This document shows, one piece after another, positions 4,328 to 64,000 of a DNA stretch of 64,000 nt. The position numbers were made by a program, and so were the translations under genes. Source of the stretch: Leptasterias polaris (Eukaryota; Echinodermata; Asteroidea; Forcipulatida; Asteriidae); assembly GCA_037783415.1 (NCBI GenBank), contig JAZGTN010000298.1:186001-250000 (forward strand), read 5' to 3'. The notes below the pieces were generated by a model. It searched no databases, was not told the DNA's origin, and was given only the letters and a program-made list of their open reading frames with translations. Each line of letters starts with the position of its first letter. The stretch's first letter is position 1.

Positions 4328-6520
4328 TTAAGGTTGACGTAGTTTCATACTGCATGATGTGATGGGTTTAGTCCATTCATACCATATAATGCCTCGTTTG
4401 CCACCAAGGTTCTGCCCATACTCACCATTCAAGTGAGACTTCACTGTGCAGTCATTGAACCACCAGGCTCCATGAGTTGTTTTTGCACAATTCCCACCAT
4501 CATATTCATCATTGTCTCTATCCTTTGTTGTGAACTTATGACCATTGTTATCATTAAGAGACTCATATGCATTGCCACCTACGTAATTGTCATAACTGAA
4601 TGTATAGTTGCTACCGGTAACATTTACTCCATTACACTTTTTATAACTTTTTCCACTTGCCGTTGAATTAAGATCCACCCGTAGATTGGTATAACCTGCT
4701 GAGGTCAGTTTGACTAAGTTATCATTGCCAAGCCAGAACTCTCCTGATAGGTCACCAAAACCAGTCTGGTATTCAGTCCAATTGCGATAAAAGTCTACAC
4801 TACCATCAATCCGCCTCTGAAATACAATCCATCCCCCACCATCAGTCTCCATGTCACAGAACACCCTCAGACCTTGTGGGATTCCACTTGGGTAGATGGT
4901 GTATACTTTACTCTTAGTGTAATTTTTGTTCAAAAATGCCTTACAGCTGCTGAGTTTAGGCAAGGGGCTTTGAGTTAAAAAGAAGTGAGTTGTTGAATCA
5001 TTGGTCAAATGAGGAGTTTTTGGCTCATGGGATAAGGGGTGAGTTGTAGACTCAGTTGATAAGGGGTGAGTTGTATGCTCAGTTGATGCGGGGTGAGTTG
5101 TAGGCTCAGTTGATGAGGGGTGAGTTGTTGATGAGGGTATAGTTGTTGGCTCAGTTGATGAGGGGTGAGTTGTAGGCTCAGTTGATGAGGGGTGAGTTGT
5201 TGATGAGGGTATAGTTGTTGGTTCAGTTGATGAGGGGTGAGTTGTAGGCTCAGTTGAAGAGGGGTGAGTTGTTGGCTCAGTTGATGAGGGGTGAGTTGTA
5301 GGCTCTGTTGATGAGGGGTGAGTTGTAGGCTCAGTTGATGAGGGGTGAGTTGTAGGCTCAGTTGATGAGGGGTGAGTTGTAGGCTCTGTTGATGAGGGGT
5401 GAGTTGTAGGCTCAGTTGATGAGGGGTGAGTTGTTGATGAGGGTATAGTTGTTGGCTCAGTTGATGAGGGGTGAGTTGTTGATGAGGGTATAGTTGTTGG
5501 TTCAGTTGATGAAGGGTGAGTTGTAGGCTCAGTTGATGAGGGGTGAGTTGTTGGCTCAGTTGATGAGGGGTAAGTTGTAGGCTCTGTTGATGAGGGGTGA
5601 GTTGTTGGCTCAGCTGATGAGGGGGGAGTTGTTGGCTCAGTTGATGAGGGGTGAGTTGTTGGCTCAGTTGATGAGGGGTGAGTTGTAGGCTCAGTTGATG
5701 AGGGGTGAGTTGTAGGCTCAGTTGATGAGGGGTGAGTTGTTGGCTCAGTTGATGAGGGGTAAGTTGTAGGCTCTGTTGATGAGGGGTGAGTTGTTGGCTC
5801 TGTTGATGAGGGGTGAGTTGTTGGCTCAGTTGATGAGGGGTGAGTTGTTGGCTCAGTTGATGAGGGTTGAGTTGTAGGCTCAGTTGATGAGGGGTGAGTT
5901 GTAGACTCAGTTGATGAGGGGTGAGTTGTAGACTCAGTTGATGAGGGGTGAGTTGTAGACTCAGTTGATGAGGGTCGAGTTGTTGGCTCAGTTGATGAGG
6001 GTTGAGTTGTCTGATCTGTTGGGGACTCCTTCACAGAAGATGTTTCAATTTCACAGTAGATCAGCTGACAGTTCACTAACCCATAAGGACAGATGGTGTA
6101 AAATCCACTTTTCTTTATCCCTACAGGACAACTTTCGAAGCATTCCAATGTTGTATCAACCTTTGATACAAGGAGAGCTGTGTTTTCATCCATGTCAAAA
6201 TACAAACTTTCTTGATCTTCAACAAAGTCATCAGTGTGCTCCTTCCTTGTAGCATTGCTGAACTCACAAAACCTTCTACACTTGTAGAAGTTGAAAGACC
6301 TACAGTCTTTTTCCAAACCACAATCCCGTCCACAGATGATGTGATTGGCCACAGTTTTGTTCTTGTACACAAAGTTCTTGAGGGCCATGTTTTCAGCACT
6401 GAAGAACTGGTGTTCCAACTGACCACACTGACTTCCAAACCGCTCTGCCATCATCGATGGAGAAAACCCCCAAATCATCATGACACAGACGACATACTTG
6501 GAGAGAATTTGCTTGATCAT
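4328..6520 (-). CDS. Secreted fibrinogen-related lectin with PAN domain and ~38-repeat mucin stalk
   Basis: 730 residues in one exon. Residues 1-25 are a signal peptide. Residues 32-108 are a PAN/apple-like module (HIICGRDCGLEKDCRSFNF core). Residues 127-160 resemble the start of a fibrinogen domain and look vestigial. Residues 171-520 are about 38 units of the 9-mer TTHPSSTEP, which would be densely O-glycosylated. Residues 522-730 are a complete fibrinogen domain: CDMETDGGGWIVFQRR, WLGNDN, calcium loop DRDND, HGAWWF pocket, final CSMKLR. The start is supported by an in-frame TAA three codons upstream. Family knowledge: such ficolin-like domains bind acetylated sugars or microbial surfaces. 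Unlike its neighbours it has an extra cysteine (YKKCNG) in the variable part of the domain. Role in immunity is inferred. Confidence 0.88.
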   Translation of the reverse strand: MIKQILSKYVVCVMMIWGFSPSMMAERFGSQCGQLEHQFFSAENMALKNFVYKNKTVANHIICGRDCGLEKDCRSFNFYKCRRFCEFSNATRKEHTDDFVEDQESLYFDMDENTALLVSKVDTTLECFESCPVGIKKSGFYTICPYGLVNCQLIYCEIETSSVKESPTDQTTQPSSTEPTTRPSSTESTTHPSSTESTTHPSSTESTTHPSSTEPTTQPSSTEPTTHPSSTEPTTHPSSTEPTTHPSSTEPTTYPSSTEPTTHPSSTEPTTHPSSTEPTTHPSSTEPTTHPSSTEPTTPPSSAEPTTHPSSTEPTTYPSSTEPTTHPSSTEPTTHPSSTEPTTIPSSTTHPSSTEPTTIPSSTTHPSSTEPTTHPSSTEPTTHPSSTEPTTHPSSTEPTTHPSSTEPTTHPSSTEPTTHPSSTEPTTHPSSTEPTTIPSSTTHPSSTEPTTHPSSTEPTTIPSSTTHPSSTEPTTHPASTEHTTHPLSTESTTHPLSHEPKTPHLTNDSTTHFFLTQSPLPKLSSCKAFLNKNYTKSKVYTIYPSGIPQGLRVFCDMETDGGGWIVFQRRIDGSVDFYRNWTEYQTGFGDLSGEFWLGNDNLVKLTSAGYTNLRVDLNSTASGKSYKKCNGVNVTGSNYTFSYDNYVGGNAYESLNDNNGHKFTTKDRDNDEYDGGNCAKTTHGAWWFNDCTVKSHLNGEYGQNLGGKRGIIWYEWTKPITSCSMKLRQP
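5020..6010 (-). repeat. 27-bp minisatellite encoding the mucin stalk of the 730-residue FREP
   Basis: The DNA unit GATGAGGGGTGAGTTGTAG plus GCTCAGTT (27 bp, plus strand) repeats about 38 times, with in-frame variants such as TTIPSSTTHPSS that insert or remove two-thirds of a unit. The reading frame is kept throughout. Confidence 0.9.
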
Positions 6521-6659
6521 ATTGAATTAGCAAGCTGCCAACTCTTAATGATTTCAGTAGAATTCTTTGACAAAAATACTGATAAACAGCACTTCTACCA
6601 CACCGCTTTGCAAATTGAAGTTTTGTCTGGTGCTCATCTCAGTTTTATGATGTCGAAGA

Positions 6660-6845
6660 AGTGCAAAATGCACTAATTGGTCCACACTGATTGGTCCACA
6701 CTGATTGGTCCACCCCGATATACCTGTTACCTGATTGGTTGATGTATAGCACTTTCAAATTTCCATTTCTATCTAAGGTCATCTGTGATTGGTCATTTGG
6801 TTTGTCAGCTTTGCAACCAGGCAGTTCATTGGTCAATCACCCATG
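6660..6845 (-). promoter_or_regulatory. CCAAT-box cluster upstream of the 730-residue FREP
   Basis: Six ATTGG motifs on the plus strand (CCAAT on the gene's own strand) lie 150-320 bases before the start codon, three of them as direct repeats of CACTGATTGGTC. CCAAT boxes bind NF-Y in animals. Clusters recur upstream of the paralogues, so promoter function is plausible but unproven. Confidence 0.4.
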
Positions 6846-10517: not shown

Positions 10518-11900
10518 CTATTGAGGTTTACGTAGCTTCATACTGCATGATGTGATGGGTTGAGGCCAGTCATACCATATAATGCCTCGTTTGCCACCAA
10601 GGTTCTGCTCATATTCACCATTTAAGTGAGACTTCACTGTACAGTCCTCGAACCACCAGGCTCCATGAGTTGTATCTGCACAATTCCCACCGTTATACTC
10701 ATCATTGTCTCTATCTGTTGTTGTGAACTTTTGATCTTTGCTGTCATTAAGAGAGTCATTTGCATTGCCCGATGAGTAACTGTCATAACTGAATTTATAT
10801 TGACTAACAGTAACACGTACTCCATCATACTCTACATACCCTGTTTTGCCATCTGATTCTAGATCCACCCTTAGATTGGTATAACCTGCTGAGGTCAGTT
10901 TGACTAAGTTATCATTGCCAAGCCAGAACTCTCCTGATCGGTCACCAAAACCAGTCTGGTATTCAGCCCAGTTGCGATAAAAGTCTACAGTGCCATCAAA
11001 CCGCCTCTGAAATACAATCCATCCCCCACCATCAGTCTCCATGTCACAGTACACCCTCAGACCTTGTGGGATTCCACTTGGGTAGATTGTGTATACTTTA
11101 CTCTCAGTGTAATCAGCATCAAAAAATGCCTTGCAGCTGCTCAGTTTAGGCAGAGGACTTGTTGGCTCAGGAGATGAGGGGTGAGTTGTTGGCTCAGGAG
11201 ATGAGGGGTGAGTTGTTGGCTCAGGAGATGAGGGGTGAGTTGTGGGCTCAGGAGACGAGGGGTGAGTTGTTGGCTCAGGAGATGAGGGGTGAGTTGTTGG
11301 CTCAGGGGACGAGGGTTGAGTTGTTGGCTCAGGGGATGAGGGTTGAGTTGGGGACTGAGTTTTAATATGGTGAGTTGTTGGTGCAATTGATGAGTAGAAC
11401 GATGTGAACTCCTTCACAGAGGATGTTTCATTTTCACAGTAGATCAGCTGACAGTTCACAAACCCATCGGGACATATGGTGTAAAACCCACTGTTCTCAA
11501 TCCCACCCTTACAACTTCTAAAGCATTTCAGCATTGTATCATTCTTTGATTGGAGAGCTGTTTTCTTATCTGTGTCAAAATACAAACTTTCTTGATCTTC
11601 AACAAAGTCTTCAGTGTGCTCCTTCCTTGTAGCATTGCTGAACTCACAAAACCCTCCACATTTGTAGAAGTTGAAAGACCTACAGTCTTTTTCCAAACCA
11701 CAATCTCGTCCGCAGATGACGTGATTGGCCACAGTTTTGTTCTTGTACACAAAGTTCTTGAGGGCCATGTTTTCAGCACTGAAGAACTGGTGTTCCAACT
11801 GACCACACTGACTTCCAAACCGCTCTGCCATCATCGATGGAAAAAAAACCCAAATCATCATGACACAGACGACATACTTGGAGAGAAGTTGCTTGATCAT
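10518..11900 (-). CDS. Secreted fibrinogen-related lectin with PAN domain and short mucin stalk
   Basis: 460 residues, one exon, duplication partner of 4328-6520. Its first 160 residues are nearly identical to that gene: signal peptide 1-25, PAN module 32-108, vestigial fibrinogen-start segment with SGFYTICPDGFVNC. The stalk (about 183-248) has only about eight units, and most carry SSPEP where the partner has SSTEP. The fibrinogen domain (about 250-460) has the Gly-Gly-Gly-Trp core, WLGNDN, DRDND calcium loop and HGAWWF. Between NLRVDL and FTTTDRDND it differs strongly from its partner although the flanking sequence hardly changes. It has the same in-frame stop before the ATG as the partner. 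Probably a soluble recognition lectin. Confidence 0.88.
   Translation of the reverse strand: MIKQLLSKYVVCVMMIWVFFPSMMAERFGSQCGQLEHQFFSAENMALKNFVYKNKTVANHVICGRDCGLEKDCRSFNFYKCGGFCEFSNATRKEHTEDFVEDQESLYFDTDKKTALQSKNDTMLKCFRSCKGGIENSGFYTICPDGFVNCQLIYCENETSSVKEFTSFYSSIAPTTHHIKTQSPTQPSSPEPTTQPSSPEPTTHPSSPEPTTHPSSPEPTTHPSSPEPTTHPSSPEPTTHPSSPEPTSPLPKLSSCKAFFDADYTESKVYTIYPSGIPQGLRVYCDMETDGGGWIVFQRRFDGTVDFYRNWAEYQTGFGDRSGEFWLGNDNLVKLTSAGYTNLRVDLESDGKTGYVEYDGVRVTVSQYKFSYDSYSSGNANDSLNDSKDQKFTTTDRDNDEYNGGNCADTTHGAWWFEDCTVKSHLNGEYEQNLGGKRGIIWYDWPQPITSCSMKLRKPQ
11160..11350 (-). repeat. 27-bp stalk minisatellite of the 460-residue FREP
   Basis: About seven or eight copies of a unit containing CTCAGGAGATGAGGGGTGAG. 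The AGGAGA variant (Pro instead of Thr in the protein) fills nearly every unit here and does not occur in the 730-residue gene, so the array has been homogenised locally. Confidence 0.85.
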
Positions 11901-14375: not shown

Positions 14376-15830
14376 CTCATGGAGCTACTTGCTGTGGCTC
14401 TTGGAGCTAGCTAGGCTTGTACCCGAGGCAAGAGGTAGCTGCAGCTGGAAACTTATGAACATGTGGGAGAGGGGGGGGGGGGGTCCATAATGCTGAGTAC
14501 CTTTTGCAAGCTACACCTAGCTGTTCAAATCGCCTGTTTAATTCAGAACCCAAATTAGATAGTCAATACTTATGAAGACCACTTTTGTGATAGTAGCAAT
14601 GCAATTGTCTACATTTAAAGTGTTGAGAAAAACTTTGGAAAAAAATGAAAAAAGTAAAAGCCGTGGTTTATCGCAACCCTCAGGAGGATGGAGGGTTACA
14701 ATTTCACCTACTTTTGGCTTTGCTAATTTAGTAGTACTAGTAGTAAGTTTATCGCCTTTGGATTTATCATACTTTTTGGGGACTTTTTAGCCCCATGACA
14801 GGGCTTTACATAGTATTAGGCATTATTAAAATAAAAACATGTTTAGCGTCCTGACTGTTTAAAAAAAGGAAGGAGGAGGGCCTTTTTTATTATTTTTTAT
14901 TTTTATTTTTTTCAAAAATGGCTGCCCAACTTATTTTTCAAGACAATTGGCCGGGCTATTTTTCAAGATGGTTGCCAGCTTTTTCGGTGTGTTTTTCCGG
15001 TGTGCTTTTCCGGTGTGCTAAAGTCTAAAAATCTAATCTTATTATTAAAAAAAAATAAAAAATTTGTCAGAGATAGTTAAAATTCATTATTTTCTTTTTT
15101 TCGTAAAAAAAACACACACACAAAAAAAGGACGCGGCCTCTAAAAACGAAGTAGGTGGGGATGCTTAACATGTTTTTGGGGTGTTTTTTTGCCATGATGG
15201 TCATGATGAAATGGGCTTGAAATGCTGTAGTTTTGGGGAATAAATTTAACAATTAGTTCAAAACTTGAAAACAATGAAAACATAATTTGGGCTTTCAATA
15301 ATTTTCTCGTGATTCCAATGACTGATTGAGCTTAAAATTTCACAGGTTTGTTATTTCATGTATATGTTCGATCACATAACATGGGGATCGACTCTGGTCT
15401 TTGACATTACCAATGGTAGCCGTGTGCCTCAACTGTCTGAATACCATCTATGATCTTTTTCCCTTTAAATTAAGTTATCAGAAGTCATAACAAGACAGTG
15501 GTCAAGTTTGTAGCAGTTGTTCTATAGTAAACAAGAGTAGTTACTGTCATAAAAACAATGCAACCTCCCACACCTCATTCTCAGTATTTACAAGTTTATG
15601 CAAAAAATAAAATCAATAAATGGGCATGTTTACCATTTTAATACCCATATCAGAGATCTGTTTGTAGATACAATGGGACTTCAGAGGACAAATAAATTAA
15701 CCAAATTTTTATTGCCCGGACAGAAATCGCCGAAAACCAAAGCCAGACTCATGTTCCGCCCATTCAAAAGAAAAATAAATAATGCTTAAGCATTGTTTAG
15801 AAGGATGTACTCACTATTGAGGTTTACGTA
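14376..15830. other. Noncoding, no gene seen
   Basis: Contains a G run near 14468, a duplicated TTTTCCGGTGTGCT at about 14990-15018, and A/T-rich runs. Short open frames here have no recognisable domain. Confidence 0.5.
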
Positions 15831-15833
15831 GTT

Positions 15834-16235
15834 TCATACTGCATGATGTAATGGGTTGAGTCCATTCATACCATTCTGCCCATATTCACCATTTAAGTGA
15901 GACTTCACTGTTTGGCAGTCTCCAAACCACCAGGCTCCATGAGTTTGTTCTGCACAATTCTCACCATTATCGTTGTCATCCTTTGTTTTAAATTGATAAT
16001 TATTGTTGTCATTAAGACAGTCAGCTGCGTCCCCACTTATTTTATTGCTGTAACTGAATGTATATTCACTACCAGTAACACGTACTCCATCATACTCTAC
16101 ATACCCTGTTTTGCCATCTGATTCAAGAACCACCCTTAGATTGGTATAACCTGCTGAGGTCAGTTTGACTAAGTTATCATCCAGAACTCTCCTGATGGGT
16201 CACCAGTCTGGTATTCAGTCCAGTTAGCGAGTGCC
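15834..16235 (-). pseudogene. FREP pseudogene, C-terminal fibrinogen half
   Basis: Minus-strand remnant of a fibrinogen domain close to those of 10518-11900 and 17098-18210, with VEYDGVRVTGSEYTFSYS, a damaged calcium loop (DDNDN), HGAWWF and SHLNGEYGQN still readable. It has a 7-base deletion near 16180 (TGCCAAG missing inside the WLGNDN codons), a 6-base deletion near 16205, and a deletion removing LGGKRGI near the end. Homology stops at about 16235, so signal peptide, PAN domain and stalk are absent. The FTTKDRDND counterpart is FKTKDDNDN here. Confidence 0.85.
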
Positions 16236-16299
16236 CCTACCAAACCGACATCATTACCTTGTGGTGATGTGTCAGTTACAACCACTCCAGTATATCCAT

Positions 16300-17097: not shown

Positions 17098-18210
17098 TTA
17101 AGGTTGACGTAGTTTCATACTGCATGATGTGATGGGTTGAGGCCAGTCATACCATTTAATGCCTCGTTTGCCACCAAGGTTCTGCTCATATTCACCATTC
17201 AAGTGAGACTTCACTGTGCAGTCCTCGAACCACCAGGCTCCATGAGTTGTATCTGCACAATTCCCACTTTCATTATCATTGTCTCTATCCTTTGTTGTGA
17301 ACTTATAACCATTGCTATCACCCAGAGAGTCATGAGTAGTGCCACCTATTGTATTGCTGTAACTGAGTGTATATTCACTACCAATAATGTGTACTCCATC
17401 ATACTCTACATACCCTGTTTTGCCATCTGATTCTAAATCCACCCTTAGATTGGTATAACCTGCTGAGGTCAGTTTGACTAAGTTATCATTGCCAAGCCAG
17501 AACTCTCCTGATGGGTCACCAAAACCAGTCTGGTATTCAGCCCAGTTCTGATAAAAGTCTAGAGTGCCATCAATCCGCCTCTGAAATACAATCCATCCCC
17601 CACCATCAGTCTCCATGTCACAGTACACCCTCATCAGACCTTGTGAGATTCCATCTGGGTAGATTGTGTATACTTTACTGTCAGTGTAACCAGCATCCAG
17701 AAATGCCTTACAGCTGCTGAGTTTAGGCAGAGGGCTTTGAGTTGTAAAGAAGGGAGTGGTTGGATCAATGGTGAAATGACCTGCATCCAAAAGTTCTCTA
17801 CAACTGTTGAAGAGAGTGAGAGAGTTATCAGCCACTGAGTAGATGGGTGTGTCCTCATCTGCATCAAAGTATACACTCCCTTGATCTTCAAGGAGGTCTT
17901 GAGGATGCTCAGCTCTCGTTGCATTATTCAGCTCACAGAGTTTCTTACATTCATAGAAGTTGAAAGACTTACAGTCCTCATCCATGCTGCAATCTCGTCC
18001 ACAGATGACATGATTAAGTGTGGTTTTTGTCTTGTACTCAGAATTCTTGAGAACTCTGTTTTCTGCACCAAACAATTGTTTTGTCGGTGAACATGTACCA
18101 CAGCTCCCTCTATCAAGTCCAAAGCTCTTCACAGATATTATATTCACCAATGACAGTATGAAAATAACATTCAACTGAAAAACACAGATCCCCAAAATCC
18201 GGCGAATCAT
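17098..18210 (-). CDS. Secreted fibrinogen-related lectin with PAN domain, no mucin repeats
   Basis: 370 residues from the ATG at 18210; an in-frame ATG at 18234 would add eight. I chose the inner start because its MIRRILG aligns with the MIKQILS start of the first two genes. Signal peptide about 1-28. The PAN module has CGRDCSMDEDCKSFNFYECK, matching genes near 26, 39 and 57 kb. A short segment SCRELLDAGHFTI resembles a fibrinogen-domain start. The stalk is reduced to TTPFFTTQSP. The fibrinogen domain (about 161-370) matches the first two genes nearly word for word (DRDND, HGAWWFEDC, CSMKLRQP). So the N-terminal and C-terminal halves belong to different subfamilies: a natural recombinant. 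Confidence 0.88.
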   Translation of the reverse strand: MIRRILGICVFQLNVIFILSLVNIISVKSFGLDRGSCGTCSPTKQLFGAENRVLKNSEYKTKTTLNHVICGRDCSMDEDCKSFNFYECKKLCELNNATRAEHPQDLLEDQGSVYFDADEDTPIYSVADNSLTLFNSCRELLDAGHFTIDPTTPFFTTQSPLPKLSSCKAFLDAGYTDSKVYTIYPDGISQGLMRVYCDMETDGGGWIVFQRRIDGTLDFYQNWAEYQTGFGDPSGEFWLGNDNLVKLTSAGYTNLRVDLESDGKTGYVEYDGVHIIGSEYTLSYSNTIGGTTHDSLGDSNGYKFTTKDRDNDNESGNCADTTHGAWWFEDCTVKSHLNGEYEQNLGGKRGIKWYDWPQPITSCSMKLRQP

Positions 18211-18439
18211 CTTAAAGTTTGCAACTTCACACATCTTTATTCACAATTTTTGTCACTTCAAACATCAGATGGTGCTAAGTAAAGAAGGTGCGGATGATTT
18301 TCAGAGGCAGTTAAGAGTTGTCTTATGCATCACTACAGGGCAGAGCATGCTGAAGAAGTAAATGATAGCTGTGGTTCAAATGAGCTTGGCTTTGTTTTGC
18401 AAACCACAGACTATTTTACCACTGAATGATGATAACAAA

Positions 18440-22439: not shown

Positions 22440-24235
22440 GGAATACTGACTTCAGCCAATTTTTAAATAGTATTGTTAATTTTTTTTTATTAATCTCAAA
22501 TAGCAAGAATGACAAATGTTTTGAATTTATTCAATAACTATAATTATGCAAGGCCACATATTATTATAAATAAAATGGACAAGAGTCAATTATTTTAGTC
22601 TCATCAAGTTCATCTTCAAAAAGGCGCCAATAACAAAATGTGCTTGCAGCGTTCTTTCCACATGCATGCAGTGGTGTAAGGGAGGCCACAGGGATGCCTG
22701 TAATTGCTACCTCCCCCACTGAAGTCTGTGTATGATTTGTCTTGGTGAAATGAATAATAAGAATAAAATGCATACCTATCAAACAAAATAAAGTTCTTTT
22801 TAATGGGAAAGTGCTTCATTTTCTTTTCATTTTTAAAAACCTTTTTAAAAGTGAATTGCTTCCTATTGTTTTAATTGCAAACAATTTTGTCACCACATGT
22901 TGGAGGGAATGTTAGAGATACTTGTACAGGTGTTTTAGATTTTCAAATGCACTTTCATTGACTGCAATTATTTTAAGATGGAAAGTTTCTGTTGAGGGTT
23001 ATTACTGGTGTGAATCAAGATTTCAGACTAAAACTAGTCCATGTCTTTGAATCTCACAAAGTCCTTACATTTACCCTGTTTTATCTACAAAAACAATTTG
23101 TGTTTAATTAAATATTTCCTCTGTGGCACTCTTTTGTGTTACTTAATTTTTATGGAGCAACTCTTTGCAACTTGTTCAGAGTGGCTCACATGTACAAGGA
23201 CCACAAAAAGGAGAGGCTTTTTAAACCATTTAAATCATGTACAACTTCTCTACTCTTAGAATCAGATGGCAGTTTTAACTCCTCAGACCTTCAAATCCTA
23301 GTTCTGCAGCACCTGATGCTGTACTACACATCCCCCATTAATGAAAGATTTATTATTTACAACATAATGAAATATTTATTTTTAACAAAAAGAAGCGAAC
23401 AGAATATCGCATACACCTTTGGTTCAAGTCTGTTGTTGATGAATCATTGTTATTTACACTCAACCCCAATTGTTTTTATTTGAGTTTTGGGCTAGTTTAC
23501 TTCACACAGTTTCATGCTGCAAGTTTTGAGAGATTCCGTTTTAAAGGTTTCCCATAAAAAATACCATCTGAAGGATTTGAGCTTCCATCTGAAGAGTTTG
23601 AGTATACACCATTTAAGTTACAACATAATGAAATATTTATTTTTAACAAAAAGAAGCGAACAGAATATCGCATACACCTTTGGTTCAAGTTTCTGTTGAG
23701 GGTTATTACTGGTGTGAATCAAGGAGTTTTTAGACTAAAACTAGTCCATGTCTTTGAATCTCACAAAGTTCTTACATTTACCCTGTTTTATCTACAAAAA
23801 CAATTTGTGTTTAATTAAATATTTCCTCTGTGGCACTCTTTTGTGTTACTTAATTTTTATGGAGCAACTCTTTACAACTTGTTCAGGGTGGCTCACATGT
23901 ACAAGGACCACAAAAAGGAGAGGTCGTTGACCTGTATTCAATTTGATTTCAGACTTTTTAAACCGTTTAAATCATGTACAACTTCTCTACTCTTAGAATC
24001 AGATGGCAGTTTTAACTCCTCAGACCTTCAAATCCTAGTTCTGCAGCACCTGATGCTGTACTACATCCCCCATTAATGAAAGATTTATCACTTACAACAT
24101 AATGAAATATTTATTTTTAACAAAAAGAAGCGAACAGAATATTAATATCGCATACACCTTTGGTTCAAGTCTGTTGTTGATGAATCATTGTTATTTACAC
24201 TCAACCCCAATTGTTTTTATTTGAGTTTTGGGCTA
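22440..24235. repeat. Duplicated noncoding block, copy 1, with internal tandem duplication
   Basis: Matches 32780-33780 and 45840-46190 plus 49940-50870. Shared landmarks are CTCATCAAGTTCATCTTC and TTCCACATGCATGCAGTGG. Within this copy 22982-23690 is repeated as 23690-24400. Confidence 0.75.
23496..23617 (-). pseudogene. FREP C-terminal micro-fragment
   Basis: About 120 bases encoding the last residues of a fibrinogen domain (minus strand, ends with CAGCATGAAACTG), cut off sharply after ACCATTTAAGTT. It repeats the start of the larger pseudogene at 24240 and includes a piece (CATCTGAAGAGTTTGAGTAT) matching the 50.9-kb gene instead. Left by the local tandem duplication. Confidence 0.7.
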
Positions 24236-24239
24236 GTTT

Positions 24240-25255: not shown

Positions 25256-25275
25256 TACAAAACATTGAGACCAGA

Positions 25276-46222: not shown

Positions 46223-49200
46223 TAAAATTTTTAAGGCGCACAGTATCTGGAATAAAACCATTCAAAGGCGCCGGTTGCTAGCAAGTTCTGACAGATTGAA
46301 CAGATGAGTCTTGAGGTTGCGTTTGAATGTTGACAGATCAGGTGTGTCCCTTAACTCGTCTGGCAAGGAATTCCAGAGACGCGGTGCGCAGCTGGAAAAG
46401 GCACGGTCTCCGTAACTTGCCAGACGAGTTTTGGGAACATAGAGAACATAGAGAAGATCTAAGGCCTGGTCTCAAGTTCCGTAGTTGTAGCAGATCTGTA
46501 ATGTAGCAAGGGGCTAATCCATGGAGGGCCTTGAATGTGAGAAGCAAGATTTTGAATTGTATTCTATGTTTAACAGGAAGCCAGTGGAGATTATATAATA
46601 TGGGTGTTATGTGCTCAGAAGATTTTGTCCTGGTGAGTAAGCGGGCAGATGCATTTTGGACTTTTTGAAGACGTTTAAGTGATTGCTGAGGAAGTGCTGT
46701 AAGTAGACTGTTGCATAAGTCGAGTCTTGATGAGATGAAAGCATGAATGAGTTGTTCAGCTGTATGAAGTGAAAGTGATGCCCTGATTGCCGCTATGCGA
46801 CGTAGATGTGCGTAAGAAGATTGACAGACTGTTGTAATATGTCGGTCAAGGTTCATAAACCTATCAAAGGTAACACCAAGGTTACGTGCATCAGAGCAAG
46901 GAGCAACCAGGGCATCACCGATGTGTATGTGAGGGATTTTGACTTCCTGTCTGAGGTGTGGTGAGCGTATGACGAGAAACTGGGTTTTGTGTGCGTTGAG
47001 CTTTAGTTGATTGGCTGCCATCCACCTGCTAATATTGTCTAGGCATGTTTCAAGGATGCACAGTGTGTGAATATCATCGTCGGGTGAATTGGGAGAAAAG
47101 GTTGCGTAAAGTTGTGTGTCGTCTGCGTAGAAATGGGGGTGGAGACCATGGTGTCGGGCAATGCGGCCAAGGGGTGATATGTATAAGGTGAAAAGTAGAG
47201 GCCCCAAAACAGATCCTTGTGGTACACCGTACATAAGGTTAGAGTCATTGGATAATTTCCCTGAAATATAAACAGACTGACAGCGATTATGCAAATATGA
47301 TTTGAACCAGTCGATGGCAATTCCCTGGACCCCAAATTGATATTGTAGTCTATGCAAGAGGATGTTATGGTCAATTGTGTCGAAGGCTGCAGATAGGTCA
47401 AGTAAAACCAGTAGAACTGCCCTTTTGTTATCGATGGCAATCATGATGTCATTGTGGACTTTCAACAAAGCTGTTTCTACACTATGGAAACGAGTGTAAG
47501 CGGATTGGAAGTCGTCACGCAAGCCATACTCCGTGAGGTGGGCGTTCAATCTGGCGGCTACTACCTTTTCAGCAGCCTTCGACACAAATGATAAGTTAGA
47601 AATTGGGCGATAATTATTTAAATCATTTTTGTCAAGGGACTGTTTCTTCATAACTGGAGTAATGAGAGCCCTCTTCAAGCAATCTGGGAAGTGGCCTGAG
47701 GTAAGAGATCTGTTGATTATTGCCGCTATGGGCTTAACCAACACGTCAATATGTTCCTTCACCATGGCTGATGGAATTGGATCTAGGGCACAGGTCTTCA
47801 TGGGGGAGTTCTTGATTATCTTCATGACTTCTTGGTCCGAGGCAGTGGTAAACGCTGTAAGGGGGACTTGATGGAACTCACAATCTTCCACATGGGGGTC
47901 AGCATAGGAGTTAGCGTGTAGGGGAATGTTGTCTCTGATTTTGACGACCTTTTCTTTGAAAAAATCAGAGAAGCTATCAACCATTGCTGTGGTGTTTGGG
48001 AATGATGGGAAAACAGGAGTGGTTTTCCTGTGCATGAGATGGTTGGTGACTTGGAAAAGGGCTTTTTGATCGCCTCCACAGTCATGTATTTTGTCGGAGT
48101 AGTAGTTGGCCTTGTGGTTGTTGAATTTAAGTTTAACCAGTTCTCGCTGAGTTTTGAAGATATCACGGTCTACCTGGAGGCTGGATGAGCGCCAACTCCG
48201 TTCCAGTTGTCGACGCCTGCGTTTAGCCGAAGCTATGTCATCGTTGTACCAAGGAACCATAGGTTTAACAATGATTGAACTGGTTTTGGTTGGAGCGTGG
48301 GTGTCGAGCAGTACTCCGAGAACGGTGTTGTACTGATCGATGAAGGGGATGAGGGAAGATGCGATGATGTCCTGTTTGAATTTGACCTGGTCTATTGTCT
48401 TTGTTTTGCGATAAGTAACCTGACGCCTTATGTATTTGGGTTTCTCCAAGTCAAGCTGGCAGTGGATAGCGCAGTGGTCCGAAATAAAGTCTGCTGTTGT
48501 GATGGATTGTATGAGGGAGTGAGGTTGTCGAGTGATCACAAGATCTATTATGTGACCAGACGTGTGAGTACCGGTGTTGACTATTTGTTGCATGTCGTGC
48601 TGCATTAGGAGATCACCGAGTCGTCTGTGGGCATTGGAATTGTCACCCCAGTTCACGTTAAAATCACCAAGAATGATGAGGTTCCCGATGAACAGTGCCT
48701 GGTCGTCCAGCAGATCAGTAAACTCATCAATAAACGTGCTGAATGGGTAGTTGGCTCTCTTGGAAGGCGGTGGACGATAAAGAACAATGATACGGAAGTG
48801 TTTGGCGTTACCATGGTGGATGAAATCTGCTTGTATGAATTCAAAGGAGGTAAGCTGTGGGTTATTGGCTGGCCTGGCAACGGAGGCTGAGAGAGTTGAT
48901 TTATAGAGAATTGCAACACCACCTCCCCTTCGCCCTTTTCTGGGGGTGTGAACTAGTTGAAACCCTCTGGGGGTAACGTCATGGGCGTGTGTATCTTGGT
49001 CGGAACGAAACCAAGTTTCCGTTAATGCCATTATGTCAAGGTTATATTCATTTATATGGTCTTTGATGAGCTCAGTCTTGTTGCAAGCAGATTGGCAATT
49101 TACTAAACCAAGCTGAGTAGTGTGGTCGTTTATTAGGTGATCGGCAGGAGGAGTTACTTGAATTGAGTCAGTGGATGTGTGATTTAGACGATGTTTGGCC

Positions 49201-49935
49201 TTGCGAGTACCGGCTCGAGTACCCCTGTGCGCAGGTGGTTTTGAGTTAATCCGCAGGGTTTTAATGGTGAACCAGGTATGTTGAGGGATAGGTAGTTTTG
49301 GGCAGGTAGATCTAATAGCCAAAAGATGAGCAGAAGTATATGCTAGATTAGATTGCAGCGAATGATAGTCTCTTTGATGAAGCAGCTCTGTATTTGGACC
49401 AGGGTTAGGCTCAATGTCACCACACGCTACCAATGTAACATTGAAGGTAGCAGTGGAGTTAATGTAGTAGGGGATGCAGGCCTTACAGAAGCCAGTATGC
49501 ACAATGCGTCGTTTAGCCGCACCGTGATTGACACGATTGTTAACTACTTCAGTCCAGTGTTGTTGGTGGAGAAGAATGTAGGTGAACAATTGGCTAACCA
49601 GTACAAGGAGGAGCATGCTCTTTAGCTTCATTGTTGCGGTGTCCTTTGTGTACATTCACTGATTGTCATTGATTGCGCCGCTCCACTCCTCTGTACTGAA
49701 ATACAAATGGCTGCTGTGTAGATGCACTGGTTGGTGCTGATATAGAAGGGACAAGATCCTAATCAGAAGCAGTCTTGTCCTCTAGATCAAGGCAACACTG
49801 AGCAGACCAGTTTGATCTATGAAGTGAACTTGAACAGCAGTCAATGATGGAAGGTCAACACCAATCTCGATCTCGCTATATGACGTTCGATTTGTAGAGC
49901 TGTTGCTAGCGTGGCAGCCTGTTGGGCGCCATAGA
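46190..49935 (-). mobile_element. Near-complete CR1/L2-like LINE
   Basis: About 3.75 kb inserted into copy B. The uninterrupted sequence is seen at 22560 and at 32885. On the minus strand: 280-base 5' leader (49935-49656), one long ORF, and a 3' end finishing in TTATTATTATTATTATTATT. A (TTA)n tail is common in these LINE clades. The position right after AGAAATGAAAT and before ACAAGAGTCGATTG defines the edges to within a few bases; no clear target duplication. Near-full length suggests a recent insertion. Confidence 0.9.
46338..49655 (-). CDS. LINE polyprotein: signal-like leader, 2A-like peptide, AP endonuclease, reverse transcriptase
   Basis: 1105 residues. Residues 9-29 are hydrophobic (MKLKSMLLLVLVSQLF onward) and resemble a signal peptide. 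Residues 71-87, FNVTLVACGDIEPNPGP, are a canonical 2A ribosome-skipping motif; skipping would fall between Gly86 and Pro87. The endonuclease is about 183-400 (LTETW, GGGVAIL, LGDFNVNW, SDHCAI). The reverse transcriptase is about 655-900 (LDLSAAFD, GVPQGSVLGP, catalytic YADD at 843-846). The last ~40 residues are out of frame: the usual LINE tail (SYGDRAFSS, APRLWNSLP, FKRNLKTHLF) is encoded in another frame ending at 46262, so a small indel lies near 46440-46475. Otherwise there are no internal stops. Confidence 0.9.
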   Translation of the reverse strand: MYTKDTATMKLKSMLLLVLVSQLFTYILLHQQHWTEVVNNRVNHGAAKRRIVHTGFCKACIPYYINSTATFNVTLVACGDIEPNPGPNTELLHQRDYHSLQSNLAYTSAHLLAIRSTCPKLPIPQHTWFTIKTLRINSKPPAHRGTRAGTRKAKHRLNHTSTDSIQVTPPADHLINDHTTQLGLVNCQSACNKTELIKDHINEYNLDIMALTETWFRSDQDTHAHDVTPRGFQLVHTPRKGRRGGGVAILYKSTLSASVARPANNPQLTSFEFIQADFIHHGNAKHFRIIVLYRPPPSKRANYPFSTFIDEFTDLLDDQALFIGNLIILGDFNVNWGDNSNAHRRLGDLLMQHDMQQIVNTGTHTSGHIIDLVITRQPHSLIQSITTADFISDHCAIHCQLDLEKPKYIRRQVTYRKTKTIDQVKFKQDIIASSLIPFIDQYNTVLGVLLDTHAPTKTSSIIVKPMVPWYNDDIASAKRRRRQLERSWRSSSLQVDRDIFKTQRELVKLKFNNHKANYYSDKIHDCGGDQKALFQVTNHLMHRKTTPVFPSFPNTTAMVDSFSDFFKEKVVKIRDNIPLHANSYADPHVEDCEFHQVPLTAFTTASDQEVMKIIKNSPMKTCALDPIPSAMVKEHIDVLVKPIAAIINRSLTSGHFPDCLKRALITPVMKKQSLDKNDLNNYRPISNLSFVSKAAEKVVAARLNAHLTEYGLRDDFQSAYTRFHSVETALLKVHNDIMIAIDNKRAVLLVLLDLSAAFDTIDHNILLHRLQYQFGVQGIAIDWFKSYLHNRCQSVYISGKLSNDSNLMYGVPQGSVLGPLLFTLYISPLGRIARHHGLHPHFYADDTQLYATFSPNSPDDDIHTLCILETCLDNISRWMAANQLKLNAHKTQFLVIRSPHLRQEVKIPHIHIGDALVAPCSDARNLGVTFDRFMNLDRHITTVCQSSYAHLRRIAAIRASLSLHTAEQLIHAFISSRLDLCNSLLTALPQQSLKRLQKVQNASARLLTRTKSSEHITPILYNLHWLPVKHRIQFKILLLTFKALHGLAPCYITDLLQLRNLRPGLRSSLCSLCSQNSSGKLRRPCLFQLRTASLEFLARRVKGHT

Positions 49936-50873: not shown

Positions 50874-52754
50874 TCAACCCCAAATGTTTTCATTTGAAAT
50901 TTCGCGCAATTTCATGCTGCAAGTTTTGAGAGATTCCTTTTTAAAGGTTTCCCACCAAATACCCTGTCCATCTGAAGAGTTTGAGTATACACCATTTAAG
51001 TTAGAGCTTATACCCAGTGAGCACTGTTGAAACCACCATGCCCCACGATGGGTTTCTGCACAGTGTGTGGTTTCATCAACATCATTGTCTGTATCCAATG
51101 TTGAAAAGGCTTGGCCATTATTGTTATCAAGAGAGTTTCCAGCAGTACCTGTGTACGGACCAAGACCAAGTCTGTAATGATCTTCAGTATTAATCCCAAC
51201 ATATTGGTACTTTGCATATGCTTTTTGACCGTCCCATCCCTCAAGATCTATTCTGAGATCCCATTGTGCTGGGAGGGTCACAAAGTTGTCATTGCCCAGC
51301 CAGTACTCACCAGATGGATCACCAAAGCCAAACTTGTACTCAGCCCAGGTGCGTTCAAAGTCTTCACTGCCATCCAGTCGCCTCTGAAATACTGTCCATC
51401 CCCCACCGTCAGTGTCCATGTCACAGTAAACTTGTAGAGCCTCACTATTGATGCTACCTGGGTAGATGGAATACACTTTACTTTGGGTGTATCCTGCTTT
51501 CCAGAGATGCTTACAAGTTCCATATTCAGGCATTGGGATTCCACTTGATGAGGGGTGAGTTGTGGGCTCAGTCGATGAGGGGTGAGTTGTTGACTCAGTT
51601 GATGAGGGGTGAATTGTAGACTCAGTTGATGAGGGGTGAGTTGTAGACTCAGTTGATGAGGGGTGAGTTGTAGACTCAGTTGATGAGGGGTGAATTGTAG
51701 ACTCAGTTGATGAGGGGTGAATTGTAGACTCAGTTGATGAGGGGTGAGTTGTAGACTCAGTTGATGAGGGGTGAGTTGTAGACTCAGTTGATGAGGGGTG
51801 AGTTGTAGACTCAGTTGATGAGGGGTGAGTTGTAGACTCAGTTGATGAGGGGTGAGTTGTAGACTCAGTTGATGAGGGGTGAGTTGTAGACTCAGTTGAT
51901 GAGGGGTGAGTTGTAGACTCAGTTGATGAGGGGTGAGTTGTAGACTCAGTTGATGAGGGGTGAGTTGTAGACTCAGTTGATGAGGGGTGAGTTGTAGACT
52001 CAGTTGATGAGGGGTGAGTTGTAGACTCAGTTGATGAGGGGTGAGTTGTAGACTCAGTTGATGGGGGGTGAGTTGTAGACTCAGTTGATGGGGGGTGAGT
52101 TGTAGACTCAGTTGATGAGGGGTGAGTTGTAGACTCAGTTGATGAGGGGTGAGTTGTAGACTCAGTTGATGAGGGGTGAGTTGTAGACTCAGTTGATGAG
52201 GGGTGAGTTGTAGACTCAGTTGATGAAGAATGAGTTGAAGGCTTCGTTGATGAGGGGTGAGTTGTAGGTTCAGTCGATGAGGGGTGAATTGTTGGTTCAG
52301 TTGATGAAGGGTGAGTTGATGAGTGGTGAGTTGGATACTCAGTTGATGAGGATCGAGTTGTGGGCATTGGTGATGAGAAATAAGAAGTCCGCTGTGATGG
52401 CTGCAGCAAAGATGTGTCCTCATCTTCATCAAAGTACACACTTCCATAATCTTGAATAAAGTCCCCATGATGCTGTGCCCTTGATGAGTTGCTCAGCTGA
52501 CATATTTTAGAATATCTCAAGTTGAAAGACTTACAATCTTTGTCCATACTGCAATCTCGCCCACAGATCACATGGTTTGATTCAGTTTTCTCTCTGTATA
52601 CGAAATTCTTCAAAATACTGTTTTTTGAACTGAAAAACTGAAATTGCAGAACACTGCACTGATTCCCATACCCTTTAACGTTTGTAATAGTAAGCAGACA
52701 AATCAGCAGTAACATGGTGGATTGACAACACTTTGGCAGTATTACCTGTTCCAT
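50874..52754 (-). CDS. Secreted fibrinogen-related lectin with PAN domain and ~29-repeat mucin stalk
   Basis: 626 residues from ATG 52754 (AATATGG context); an in-frame ATG at 52784 adds ten residues. The inner start is favoured because MEQVILP aligns with MEPKKF/MEPELL in paralogues. Signal peptide about 1-28. The PAN module about 33-110 (CGRDCSMDKDCKSFNLRYSK) lacks one Cys common in the family. The stalk about 128-402 is about 29 nearly identical TTHPSSTES units. Fibrinogen domain about 405-618: WLGNDN, DTDND calcium loop, HRGAWWFQQC, SNLNGVY, CSMKLRE. The C-terminus runs on for ISNENIWG because the stop used by relatives is lost through a small deletion in this 3' end. Upstream at 52962 is ATATGCAAAT, an octamer-like site. 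Confidence 0.88.
   Translation of the reverse strand: MEQVILPKCCQSTMLLLICLLTITNVKGYGNQCSVLQFQFFSSKNSILKNFVYREKTESNHVICGRDCSMDKDCKSFNLRYSKICQLSNSSRAQHHGDFIQDYGSVYFDEDEDTSLLQPSQRTSYFSSPMPTTRSSSTEYPTHHSSTHPSSTEPTIHPSSTEPTTHPSSTKPSTHSSSTESTTHPSSTESTTHPSSTESTTHPSSTESTTHPSSTESTTHPPSTESTTHPPSTESTTHPSSTESTTHPSSTESTTHPSSTESTTHPSSTESTTHPSSTESTTHPSSTESTTHPSSTESTTHPSSTESTTHPSSTESTTHPSSTESTTHPSSTESTTHPSSTESTIHPSSTESTIHPSSTESTTHPSSTESTTHPSSTESTIHPSSTESTTHPSSTEPTTHPSSSGIPMPEYGTCKHLWKAGYTQSKVYSIYPGSINSEALQVYCDMDTDGGGWTVFQRRLDGSEDFERTWAEYKFGFGDPSGEYWLGNDNFVTLPAQWDLRIDLEGWDGQKAYAKYQYVGINTEDHYRLGLGPYTGTAGNSLDNNNGQAFSTLDTDNDVDETTHCAETHRGAWWFQQCSLGISSNLNGVYSNSSDGQGIWWETFKKESLKTCSMKLREISNENIWG
51541..52330 (-). 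repeat. 27-bp stalk minisatellite of the 626-residue FREP
   Basis: About 29 copies of GATGAGGGGTGAGTTGTAGA plus CTCAGTT. Long runs are identical in sequence, indicating recent homogenisation or expansion. Confidence 0.92.
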
Positions 52755-54361: not shown

Positions 54362-54475
54362 ATAGGGCTAGATAGCTCAGTTGGTAGAGCGCCGGCACGT
54401 TAAACCGGAGGTCGTTGGTTCAAATCCCGCTCTAGTCAATTTTTCTTTGTTCAACCCAAAATCAATTAAAACAGA
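54362..54475 (+). repeat. tRNA-derived SINE
   Basis: GGCTAGATAGCTCAGTTGGT to GCTCTAGTC folds almost as a tRNA: seven-pair acceptor, D arm, T loop TTCAAAT. The anticodon arm has a mismatch at 31-39 and C instead of U at position 33, and the T stem has a mismatch. AATTTTTCTTTGTTCAACCC follows, the same 3' part as the copies at 31.9 and 45.0 kb. So a SINE, not a functional tRNA. Confidence 0.65.
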
Positions 54476-56554: not shown

Positions 56555-57787
56555 TTATTGTTCACGTATTTTCATGCTACATGTTTTGAGGTGGGTTTTT
56601 TCAAAATCATCCCACCAAATACCCTGGTAAAGAATGGACTTTACATCTTGTAAATATTGCCCATTTAAGTTTGACTTCAAGCAGGAATTATACCACCAGG
56701 GTCCCTTGTGGGTTTCTGCACAGTTACCTTTTTGTTTCTGATCAAGATCTCTGTCACTTGTTGTAAAGAATTGTCCATTGTGCTCGCCAAGAGAGTTCCC
56801 AGCAGAACCTGTATATTCACCCAGTATAAGTTTGTAATTCTCCCCAACAATTTGAGCATGTTGGTATTTTGCATATGCCGTTTGACCGTCCCATCCCTCT
56901 AGATCTACTCTAAGTACCCATGACCCAGTAGAGGTCAGTGTCACCAAGTTGTCATTGCCCAGCCAGTACTCACCAGATGGATTACCAAAGCCAGACTTGC
57001 ACTCCGCCCAGTTGCGTTCAAAGTCTACACTGCCATCCAGTCGCCTCTGAAATACAGTCCATCCCCCACCGTCAGTGTCCATGTCACAGTATACTTGTAG
57101 AGCCTCACTATTGATGCCACCTGGGTAGATGGAATACACTTTACTTTGGGTGTAACCTGCATTCAAGATCTGCTTACAAGTTCCATATTCAGGCATTGGG
57201 ATTGCACTTGATGAGGGGTGAGTTGTGGGCTCAGTCGATGAGGGGTGAGTTGTAGACTCAGTTGATGAGGGGTGAGTTGTGGGTTCAGTCGATGAGGGGC
57301 GAGTTGTGGGCTCAGTCGATGAGGGGCCAGTTGTGGGCTCAGTTGATGAGGGGTGAGTTGTGGGCTCAGTCGATAAGGGGTGAGTTGTGGGCTCAGTCGA
57401 TGAGGGGCCAGGGTTAGTTGTGGTCAAGGATGTCAAGAAGTCAGCTGTGTCCTCGTCTGCATCAAAGTATACACTCCCTTGATCTTCAAGGAAGTCTTGA
57501 GGATGCTCAGCTCTTGTTGCATTATTCAGCTCACAGAGTTTCTTGCATTCACAGAAGTTGAAAGACTTACAGTCCTCATCCATGCTGCAATCTCGTCCAC
57601 AGATGACATGATTAGAAACAATTTTCTGTGTGTACGTACGATTTTGAAGAACTCTGTTTTCTGCACTGTACATTAAACATTCAGTCTCACCACACTGAAA
57701 TCCAAAGCCTCTAACATTGTGTATGAGCATAGAAAACACGCACAAAATTGCGGAATGAAAAAAGACTGCCCAGCCTTTTTGAGTCAT
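56555..57787 (-). CDS. Secreted fibrinogen-related lectin with PAN domain and 8-repeat mucin stalk
   Basis: 410 residues. Signal peptide about 1-26 (MTQKGWAVFFHSAILCVFSM onward). PAN module about 32-112 (CGETECLMYSAENRVL, CGRDCSMDEDCKSFNFCECK). The stalk, about 125-195, has some eight units with GPSS/RPSS variants. Fibrinogen domain about 198-410: GGGWTVFQRR, WLGNDNLV, DRDLD calcium loop, KGPWWYNSC, SNLNGQYL, CSMKIREQ. Pro replaces the usual Ala in the GAWWY pocket sequence, shared only with the chimeric gene at 37764. The CCAAT box pair upstream (57952-57990) fits the family pattern. Likely a soluble lectin; ligand unknown. Confidence 0.88.
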   Translation of the reverse strand: MTQKGWAVFFHSAILCVFSMLIHNVRGFGFQCGETECLMYSAENRVLQNRTYTQKIVSNHVICGRDCSMDEDCKSFNFCECKKLCELNNATRAEHPQDFLEDQGSVYFDADEDTADFLTSLTTTNPGPSSTEPTTHPLSTEPTTHPSSTEPTTGPSSTEPTTRPSSTEPTTHPSSTESTTHPSSTEPTTHPSSSAIPMPEYGTCKQILNAGYTQSKVYSIYPGGINSEALQVYCDMDTDGGGWTVFQRRLDGSVDFERNWAECKSGFGNPSGEYWLGNDNLVTLTSTGSWVLRVDLEGWDGQTAYAKYQHAQIVGENYKLILGEYTGSAGNSLGEHNGQFFTTSDRDLDQKQKGNCAETHKGPWWYNSCLKSNLNGQYLQDVKSILYQGIWWDDFEKTHLKTCSMKIREQ

Positions 57788-61410: not shown

Positions 61411-61460
61411 CCTTTTTGGGAGTCAATTCCTTTGTGTACATTATGACTCCCAAAATGGCG
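61411..61460. repeat. Short inverted repeat related to the GGGAGTCAA MITE
   Basis: CCTTTTTGGGAGTCA and TGACTCCCAAAATGGCG flank about 18 bases. The ends match the MITE at 32208-32317, with most of the interior deleted. Confidence 0.5.
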
Positions 61461-62223: not shown

Positions 62224-62262
62224 AGTCCGTGTTGTGGCGTAAAATACGCCACAACACGGACT
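62224..62262. repeat. Perfect 18-bp hairpin
   Basis: AGTCCGTGTTGTGGCGTA, three bases of loop, then its exact reverse complement. No gene or transcript context is visible. It could be a MITE relic reduced to its ends. Confidence 0.8.
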
Positions 62263-63191
62263 TGATGAAGGTAGTTTATCTTCGTTGCTATGCATTTTCC
62301 ATTGTACTGTTTGGATTGAGTCCATGGTGTGACGTCACAGTGCTGTTTTGATTTCTAGGCACTTAGGGGCTTTTCGTAAAATCCAGTGTGACACTGATCA
62401 AATGTGGTTTTTATATTCATTTTAAAGAGTTTTACTCGGTTATATGTAATCATTACACATTCCTTTACCTTTCTATAACAAAAGAACAATAATGTTAATA
62501 TTTTAGTTCATGTTCATCTTTAACATTCTCTAGCTGACTTCTATTCCAAGCAATAGACCAACATGAGGTTGAGAGCATTTTAGGAATGGTCTTATGCCAG
62601 ATGAACAGGAATAATCAGGGATGTGATTTCTCTGTTTTTAACCAGAAATCCGTTTTTTGTTGGCCCCCCCCCCCTCCCATTAAAGAAATCATTTGTTTTT
62701 TGCGCCCCCCCAAAAAAAAAAAAATTATATAAATAAAAAATAAATAAATAAAACAAATTGTTTAAAACTTAAAATCAAATTCATAAAAAATGAAGATAAA
62801 ACCATATCTAACGCCCCATATTGCAGAGTACGGCTTTTAAAACCAAAGATAAATGTTATCAGTGGGCTTCAGGCTCACTAGTTTTCGAGCTCGCAAACCT
62901 TACAGAGTTCAGGGTTTTTTCAACAGCCTATCACATCCCTGATAATGTAAAGTGCCTTGATCTACATGTAGCTACTAGGATATCTGCACTATGCAAGAAT
63001 GAAGCATAATAAATATTAATATTCTTATTACATATTTTAGATTTTAAAAATGTATTTTTCCTTGAAATATGTTTACATTGTGTATGCAGGAAGTCAAGGC
63101 TCTGTAACTGCATCGAACATCAAAAACAAATGGGTGTGTTCCGATGCTGTTTTGATTGAACATCAACAAAAATCAGGAATGAACGGAAATT

Positions 63192-64000
63192 CTCTGTATA
63201 AAACATTGAGACCAGAAATGTGATGTCATCAAACATTTTCAGAATTTGACAGAAATTGCATTTTGGGTATCAAACATACTGGCATTTTACACTGTTTTAA
63301 TGTTAGGGTAGATACTTCTAATTCCAACACCCCCCCCCCCCCCCCCATTTTCTTGAGGACTCTACCTATTGGAAAATGAGTGGATCACAGAACTCAATTT
63401 GACCTCAGAGCCCCCTTTTAATCATCTTTTTTACATAAGCAGCTGGTACCATAATCTACAGACCATGTAACCTGTGACATCAGATGTTTACAAAACATCC
63501 ACAGAACCTTGATTTAATGCAGGCCTGATTTGTGCACATCTCAATGGAAGAAATTGTAAAATCTTGCATTTCATGGAGATTGTTTTTTTGTCAATTTTTG
63601 ATATGAAGAAATGGGACGCATCCCCAAACTTGTGCAACTTACTTTTATAACTCTTGAATTTTTGTGGAAAGTGCAATACAAAATGTAAAAGATCAGATCT
63701 GACAGGGGTAGTTTCTTGCCTGCCAGGAAATGCCCTGGAACGTATAAGGTCACTCTTTTTGTCCGCAAAGGTTACATAGTCTGTATGATGTCATTTCTAG
63801 GTGCAAGAAATACATAACAATGTTAAGCATGTAAGTTTTTCATTTACCAGGAGGGTTCAAAATCTTGCTGAAATGTATTTGAAACAAATTTAAATGAAGT
63901 TTTCTGTTGGTGTCATAAGTCTGTCAAACTGTTATATTTTTGTCAATGGTTTTTTTCACTCGCGTATTTTCATGCTGCAGGATTTGAGGGATTTCTTAGT
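63192..64000. repeat. Duplicated 3' flank of the 26-kb FREP, copy 2
   Basis: Matches 25257-26345 without the two MITEs. A C run at 63331-63347 corresponds to 25532-25547. Confidence 0.85.
63956..64000 (-). CDS. FREP gene, last 14 codons and stop (continues past the window)
   Basis: Minus strand reads TKKSLKSCSMKIRE then TGA. This is the C-terminus of a fibrinogen domain almost identical to that of 26318-27424 (KKSLKSCSMKIRE), preceded by the same 3' flank. The array therefore extends to the right. Confidence 0.85.
   Translation of the reverse strand, partial: TKKSLKSCSMKIRE

Follow-up and report, generated by a model that had tools for sequence, protein, structure and literature searches.

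How can a row of neighbouring genes with one domain order come to encode proteins that differ from one another at both ends? The question is raised by a stretch of 64,000 nucleotides from the sea star Leptasterias polaris (positions 186001–250000 of contig JAZGTN010000298.1, here C298, in a genome of 630 Mb and 334 contigs), which we call the window and which holds much of an array of genes for proteins with an N-terminal PAN domain, a linker or stalk that differs in length, and a C-terminal fibrinogen-related domain (FReD), or head. Comparison of these genes reveals that PAN fronts and FReD backs are exchanged between paralogues in the array, and the array belongs, as a stalked branch, to a larger sea star PAN–FReD family, for whose size we have a lower bound. 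Together, the gains of stalk and the exchange of halves suggest a germline way to make varied, probably immune, recognition proteins.

Exchange between paralogues in the array

Loci were detected in positions 96001–324262 of C298 (324262 being the contig end) by open frames, Pfam profiles and tblastn with PAN and FReD pieces. In this stretch the array occupies contig positions 130138–251454, about 121 kb, and its 19 loci, all on the minus strand, comprise 12 intact genes, three broken genes with both domains (g130k, g5 and g16) and four fragments; the remainder gave no further match to either domain (E up to 1e-4). An earlier note, made from the letters of the window, had described six intact genes, one broken gene, one gene at the edge and four fragments in a single orientation, and open frames, Pfam and tblastn return the same count, with every locus of the window on the minus strand. 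The array does run off the right edge, as that note had it, but it ends at contig position 251454, just 1.45 kb beyond, and extends instead 56 kb past the window to the left; a far rightward reach is rejected, as 251454 to 324262 is free of PAN or FReD matches at the same threshold. Likewise, the edge gene is cut by the window edge as described, although the whole gene (g16) is also frame-broken once its other half is read. The coding regions each consist of one open frame, with an ATG and an N-terminus that by eye resembles a signal peptide, and inspection by eye found no consistent acceptor of a 5′ untranslated intron directly before the ATG. The loci of the window are listed here in window coordinates, and genes outside it take their names from their contig position in kilobases (g142k, for example).

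4328–6520, minus: g1, intact, 730 amino acids (aa); signal peptide, PAN, FReD remnant, 27-bp-repeat stalk, FReD (open frame, Pfam)
6194–6394, minus: PAN_1 of g1, residues 43–109 (21.5 bits against a cut-off of 21.4)
6032–6187, minus: N-terminal FReD remnant of g1, between PAN and stalk, about 52 aa (shuffle test against the g180k FReD, 0/2000)
5031–6010, minus: 27-bp minisatellite forming the serine-, threonine- and proline-rich (S/T/P-rich) stalk of g1, 34 units by count, in 15 different DNA versions
4331–4966, minus: FReD of g1 (Pfam, tblastn)
10518–11900, minus: g2, intact, 460 aa; PAN, FReD remnant (about 11415–11567), stalk (11159–11350), FReD
15817–16246, minus: FReD fragment spread across three frames (tblastn)
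17098–18234, minus: g3, intact, 378 aa; non-A PAN, short FReD remnant (about 17776–17811), unrepeated linker, A-type FReD; mosaic
23495–23637, minus: FReD tail fragment in two weak pieces of 30–38 bits (tblastn)
24236–25283, minus: remnant made up of stalk and FReD, no PAN match, frame interrupted, resembling the 3′ part of g6
26318–27469, minus: g4, intact, 383 aa, short stalk (open frame, Pfam)
35301–35633, minus: FReD fragment (tblastn)
37764–39136, minus: g5, broken; its 5′ half is g4-like and its 3′ half g7-like, and the join, within the stalk, carries a stray FReD tail (38505–38654)
50874–52754, minus: g6, intact, 626 aa, stalk of about 26 units (51545–52318) (open frame, Pfam)
56555–57787, minus: g7, intact, 410 aa, stalk of about 7 units (open frame, Pfam)
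63956–64000, minus: 3′ end of g16, the last gene of the array (contig 249956–251454), frame-broken between stalk and FReD

Trees, approximately unbiased (AU) tests and clustering tests were run on the 12 intact genes, leaving aside the three broken genes and four fragments. An A-type PAN is joined to an A-type FReD in five of them, another PAN to an A-type FReD in g3, g167k and g180k, and another PAN to a B-type FReD in g142k, g4, g6 and g7. The discord is plain in single pairs: g180k and g4 are 88% identical in the PAN but 52% in the FReD, whereas g167k and g175k are 49% identical in the PAN and 90% in the FReD. With clades picked after these identity tables had been seen, AU tests on the PAN data reject the FReD pair g167k and g175k (p = 2.7e-6) and the eight-gene FReD-A clade (p = 5e-4), and on the FReD data they reject the PAN pair g180k and g4 (p = 8.2e-5) and the five-gene PAN-A clade (p = 6.9e-7). 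Furthermore, shared silent sites are clustered along the 12 genes to a degree reached by none of 500 permutations, and along the eight genes with A-type FReDs to a degree reached by 2 of 500.

Two broken loci are direct chimeras at the DNA level, joined in or just before the stalk (tracts are in locus coordinates, among the matches listed). The first, g5, is g4-like from −2356 to +497, where the tract ends in the stalk (85%), and g7-like from +686 to +1669, a stretch that takes in the FReD and some 280 bp of 3′ flank (94.5%). The other, g130k, is g180k-like from +18 to +611, the end of the FReD remnant (93%), and g154k-like from +627, in the stalk, to +1370 (91%). Since both are broken, the chimeras that can be seen directly are not working genes; intact mosaic genes exist as well, g3 and g167k being examples. 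This exchange, like the FReD remnant described below, goes beyond what the earlier note had recognised.

Stalk, remnant and head

Profile searches bear out the PAN and fibrinogen domains that had been proposed from the translations. PAN_1 exceeds the Pfam gathering score in seven of the nine window frames scanned, with a margin that is narrow in some and just 0.1 bit in g1, so that these seven frames carry a PAN/apple domain by the curated cut-off. Fibrinogen_C is likewise found in seven of nine (E = 5.8e-56 to 7.6e-67), making seven frames fibrinogen-related proteins (FREPs) in the broad sense of a C-terminal FReD, and the proposed relation to FREP lectins holds on account of that domain and of a ficolin-like head. 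At E up to 0.01, Pfam finds nothing else in the lectin frames of the window; this includes the immunoglobulin superfamily (IgSF) domain of molluscan-type FREPs, and there is no collagen match of the kind expected of a ficolin stem, the stalk consisting of repeats of T, S, P and E. The lectin-like proteins of the window are closest to those of other sea stars (Asterias, Patiria, Acanthaster).

The stalk is built from an in-frame unit of 27 bp encoding nine residues similar to TTHPSSTEP, and its length differs between genes while the frame is kept. Counts run from none in g142k, g167k, g175k, g180k and g3 to 32–34 in g1, depending on method (32 or 34 for g1; 27 or 26 for g6), and the linker can be as long as 414 aa. 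A long tandem S/T/P-rich region, as in mucins, stands out in g1, g6 and g7, but is less long in g2 and almost absent from g3 and g4; the repeat-built stalk attributed to all copies is thus found in four of the six intact window genes, but g3 has no unit and g4 about one. The longer arrays each have their own dominant variant. Between units, the ratio of nonsynonymous to synonymous differences (pN/pS) is 0.24–0.80 in the seven arrays of at least four units (six in intact genes and one in the broken g16), from which it follows that the stalk is translated under some constraint, or else homogenised. We also observed that a second frame, coding for HQLSLQLTP repeats and as long as 404 codons, stays open across the 27-bp repeats and overlaps the stalks of g6 (51278–52468, minus) and g1 (5005–6030, minus).

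Between PAN and stalk, g1, g2, g154k, g161k and g175k contain 51–52 residues that are a truncated FReD. In all five genes the score of this remnant against the g180k FReD is reached by none of 2000 shuffles, and when the comparison is with the g4 FReD, which is more distant, 0–2 of 2000 shuffles reach the score; g3 and g167k retain about ten of its residues. Because the segment after the PAN is itself a truncated FReD, these genes probably derive from a PAN–FReD ancestor to which a new head on a stalk was added and from which most of the original head was lost.

In an AlphaFold2 model of g4 the head is mostly confident. The best-ranked solved heads are ficolins, with 47% identity and a TM-score of 0.87 (by target length) to L-ficolin; identity to tachylectin-5A (TL5A) is 38%. 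All 12 intact array genes keep the fibrinogen-type aspartate pair that we take to be the calcium site, the aspartates presumably acting as ligands.

The wider PAN–FReD family

It is informative to place the array among its relatives. A Fibrinogen_C search of the same genome gave at least 150 matches, 47 of them on contig C7 and 11 on C298; this is a lower bound, as 150 of 600 candidates were scored and all 150 matched. A search with g4, of which the best 150 of 196 matches were considered, placed 94 FReD matches outside C298, all in open frames of 322–645 aa. A PAN match lies in the same frame, 1–37 bp away, in 37 of the 94, and a single match spans both domains in 13. None of these 50, the ones among the 94 that could be judged, showed a long stalk, a statement that does not extend to some longer frames elsewhere, such as those of 512 aa (C125) and 517 aa (C9). 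These searches favour unbroken frames, and thus members split by introns may be missed. Elsewhere in the genome, single frames hold tandem FReDs (three in C48:136510–138498 and two in C147:315143–316486).

On C7, 19 of the 20 loci read are full PAN–FReD frames of 327–383 aa without a long stalk. The statistics for this cluster rest on 20 frames from these 19 loci (L039 yielded none above 300 aa, and L037 contributed two, one of them cut short by a TAG). Divergence at four-fold sites is 0.068 before codon 290 and 0.200 after it, a difference reached by none of 10000 permutations, with the split picked after the profile was seen and columns before codon 86 excluded. The 3′ part is itself uneven, from 0.076 at codons 341–360 to 0.448 at codons 381–400. 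The proteins are highly variable in the 3′ part of the FReD, on both sides of the calcium site and beyond, and in the signal peptide too. Such a pattern could reflect homogenisation of the front together with variation or exchange at the ligand end.

Protein databases extend the family. Both PAN and FReD occur in 106 of the best 120 of 1080 matches (counted by eye), and since two of the carriers are from corals (Porites and Oculina), the pairing reaches beyond sea stars. At least four database proteins (P0006, P0007, P0010 and P0012) have a PAN, an S/T/P-rich stalk and a FReD. P0007 consists of PAN, remnant (by eye), stalk and FReD, with 69% identity to g2 (61% in a masked comparison), whereas P0010 (Patiria) and P0012 (Acanthaster) have stalks of other repeats and two FReDs each; P0034 of Asterias amurensis shares 69% identity with g3 along almost the whole length. 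The PAN–FReD proteins of sea stars, some without a name and others called ficolin-2-like, MFAP4-like or ryncolin-like, belong to the same family; the names are those given by the sources and look automatic. Short database contigs (2038 bases for P0007) suggest that the relatives are transcribed in other sea stars.

A system unique to the C298 array is hence rejected, as is the idea that the combination of PAN and FReD is special to it, for many database proteins and same-genome copies carry both. The mucin-stalked lectin architecture is present, although as an optional elaboration of a larger family. As to whether the system is undescribed, the same architecture occurs in other sea star proteins, but the open literature (subscription papers not being covered) yielded no published description of the family among the matches listed, and the main text of the Asterias amurensis genome paper has 0 matches each for fibrinogen, ficolin, FREP, lectin and PAN domain.

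Some further observations concern the array and its surroundings. The splice-donor-like word GTGAGTA overlaps the stop codon, or follows it by at most about 8 bases, in all eight intact genes with A-type FReDs (in the window at about 4327 for g1, 10517 for g2 and 17097 for g3; five further genes lie leftward). The four B-type genes lack it in the 45 bases past the stop, and the 20 C7 frames likewise show none beyond theirs. Either a 3′ untranslated intron or mere shared ancestry could account for it. Inside the array, at 46338–49655 (minus), lies an intact 1105-aa frame of a non-LTR (long terminal repeat) retrotransposon with endonuclease and reverse transcriptase (Pfam), close to whose N-terminus stands GDIEPNPGP, a fit to the 2A ribosome-skipping motif. 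Minisatellites of 16 bp occupy 29557–29742 (about 12 copies) and 41293–42211 (about 57 copies; unit GGTCCTTCAGAGGGTA, the unit of the former being similar but rotated) between genes, tandem arrays with units of 64, 54 and 47 bp adjoin the broken g5 at 36092–36776, and a tRNA-Asn (GTT) gene lies between g6 and g7 at 54366–54438 (plus).

Proposed role and its rivals

We would put at roughly 0.6 the probability that the array is a stalked branch of secreted PAN–FReD recognition lectins, diversified in the germline and used in immune recognition; such a role is likely by homology to known lectins. In its favour speak the two Pfam domains, the match of the g4 head to L-ficolin, the retained aspartate pair, the conflict between PAN and FReD trees, the chimeric DNA tracts, the clustering of shared silent sites, the pN/pS of the stalk and the variable heads on C7. 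In this proposal the N-terminal PAN would serve assembly or anchoring, the stalk, probably O-glycosylated, would act as an extended spacer that differs in length between genes, and the ficolin-fold head would read glycans or other surface ligands of microbes. The repeated stalk may aid unequal crossing-over or conversion by offering homology outside the folded domains, and exchange at or near it would take place in the germline. Exchange itself is seen in the genes; we infer its rate, its timing and its immune use. One can also imagine a stronger version, which we hold only tentatively and think improbable as a whole, in which the coding minisatellite is a recombination joint that re-pairs the PAN fronts and FReD heads of neighbouring paralogues in the germline, perhaps also in coelomocytes, leaving the folds undamaged and so providing a combinatorial lectin repertoire in an animal that lacks antigen-receptor rearrangement.

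Several observations weigh against the immune proposal. The PAN part of the g4 model is poor and of low confidence (mean pLDDT, a per-residue confidence score, 67); on the PAN data the FReD pair g142k and g6 is not rejected (AU test, p = 0.32), and hence shows no conflict; run-length clustering of silent sites is weak in the C7 cluster (19 of 500 permutations); and the low pN/pS between stalk units could come from homogenisation instead. In addition, seven of the 19 loci are broken or fragmentary, both direct chimeras among them, and part of the exchange is therefore simply destructive. This last point is what would be expected if the locus were a partly decaying tandem array whose mosaics arose by neutral unequal crossing-over at the minisatellite, its diversity bringing no benefit; we regard this as quite improbable, given 12 intact genes with long frames, a pN/pS below 1 between stalk units, the intact state of the mosaic genes g3 and g167k, and the Asterias amurensis relative of g3.

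The last of the adverse points concerns the ligand. The aromatic residue and histidine beside the conserved disulphide, which we take, in identity and in role, to make up the acetyl pocket of ficolins and TL5A, are missing in all 12 intact array genes, which have T, H or N at one position and S, T, M or L at the other. In the C7 frames, 18 of 20 of which are readable here, Y or F is present in 16 and H in 10; among the 106 of 152 database proteins that are readable, 12 have both, and the pocket thus varies family-wide. As its residues are missing in the array and rare in relatives, ficolin-like binding of acetylated sugars is not to be assumed. The lack of the pocket and the mucin-like S/T/P-rich stalks, with linkers of up to 414 aa, would suit structural, mucous or adhesive glycoproteins (tube-foot glue, epidermal mucus or cuticle), in which PAN and FReD crosslink or bind glycans, the stalk hydrates, and diversity is a by-product of tandem duplication. 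We consider this unlikely, though worth keeping in mind: much of the same-genome family lacks a long stalk (50 judged of the 94 matches listed), protein variation on C7 is high in the 3′ part of the head, and a search of the open literature for sea star tube-foot adhesive and fibrinogen surfaced one paper, on temporary bioadhesion. A large family with modular exchange and variable heads would fit any recognition role, including allorecognition or fertilisation, where the ligands of the heads would be glycans of the host and not microbes; that the best-ranked solved heads are ficolins counts against this, and we give recognition of self or of gametes a small chance.

It is also worth considering the immune proposal alongside systems already known. 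Echinoderms possess large immune gene families in their germline. A 2026 review names FREPs for molluscs and credits echinoderms with large germline families and lectins, in the part of the text at hand (PMC13428168). The FREPs of the snail Biomphalaria glabrata are likewise soluble with a C-terminal FReD, and the portion of the source seen gives gene conversion as one origin of their diversity (PMC12074976); they have an N-terminal IgSF region, in contrast to the PAN and optional mucin-like stalk here, and the sea star array gives no sign of somatic change. Vertebrate ficolins and tachylectin-5A share the head fold and the calcium-site aspartates with the array proteins, which differ in their N-terminal PAN, in the absence of a collagen match and in the missing acetyl-pocket residues. 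The polymorphic mucins SmPoMuc of Schistosoma are also a mucin multigene family with frequent recombination among members, but they are parasite proteins with many splice variants, and the abstract mentions neither PAN nor FReD (PMC2576457). The closest echinoderm comparison is the sea urchin SpTransformer (Sp185/333) family, also clustered short genes with repeats, the repeats being proposed, in the part of the source available, to promote duplication and conversion (PMC3091723). Its genes have two exons and encode another protein, whereas the array genes are single frames with PAN and FReD; furthermore, the SpTransformer microsatellites, as that part describes them, bound the genes and duplicated segments, whereas the repeat of the array lies inside the coding frame, between two domains. 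If heads and fronts are indeed exchanged across a coding minisatellite, the sea star array would be a second echinoderm case, beside SpTransformer and structurally different from it, of diversity promoted by repeats.

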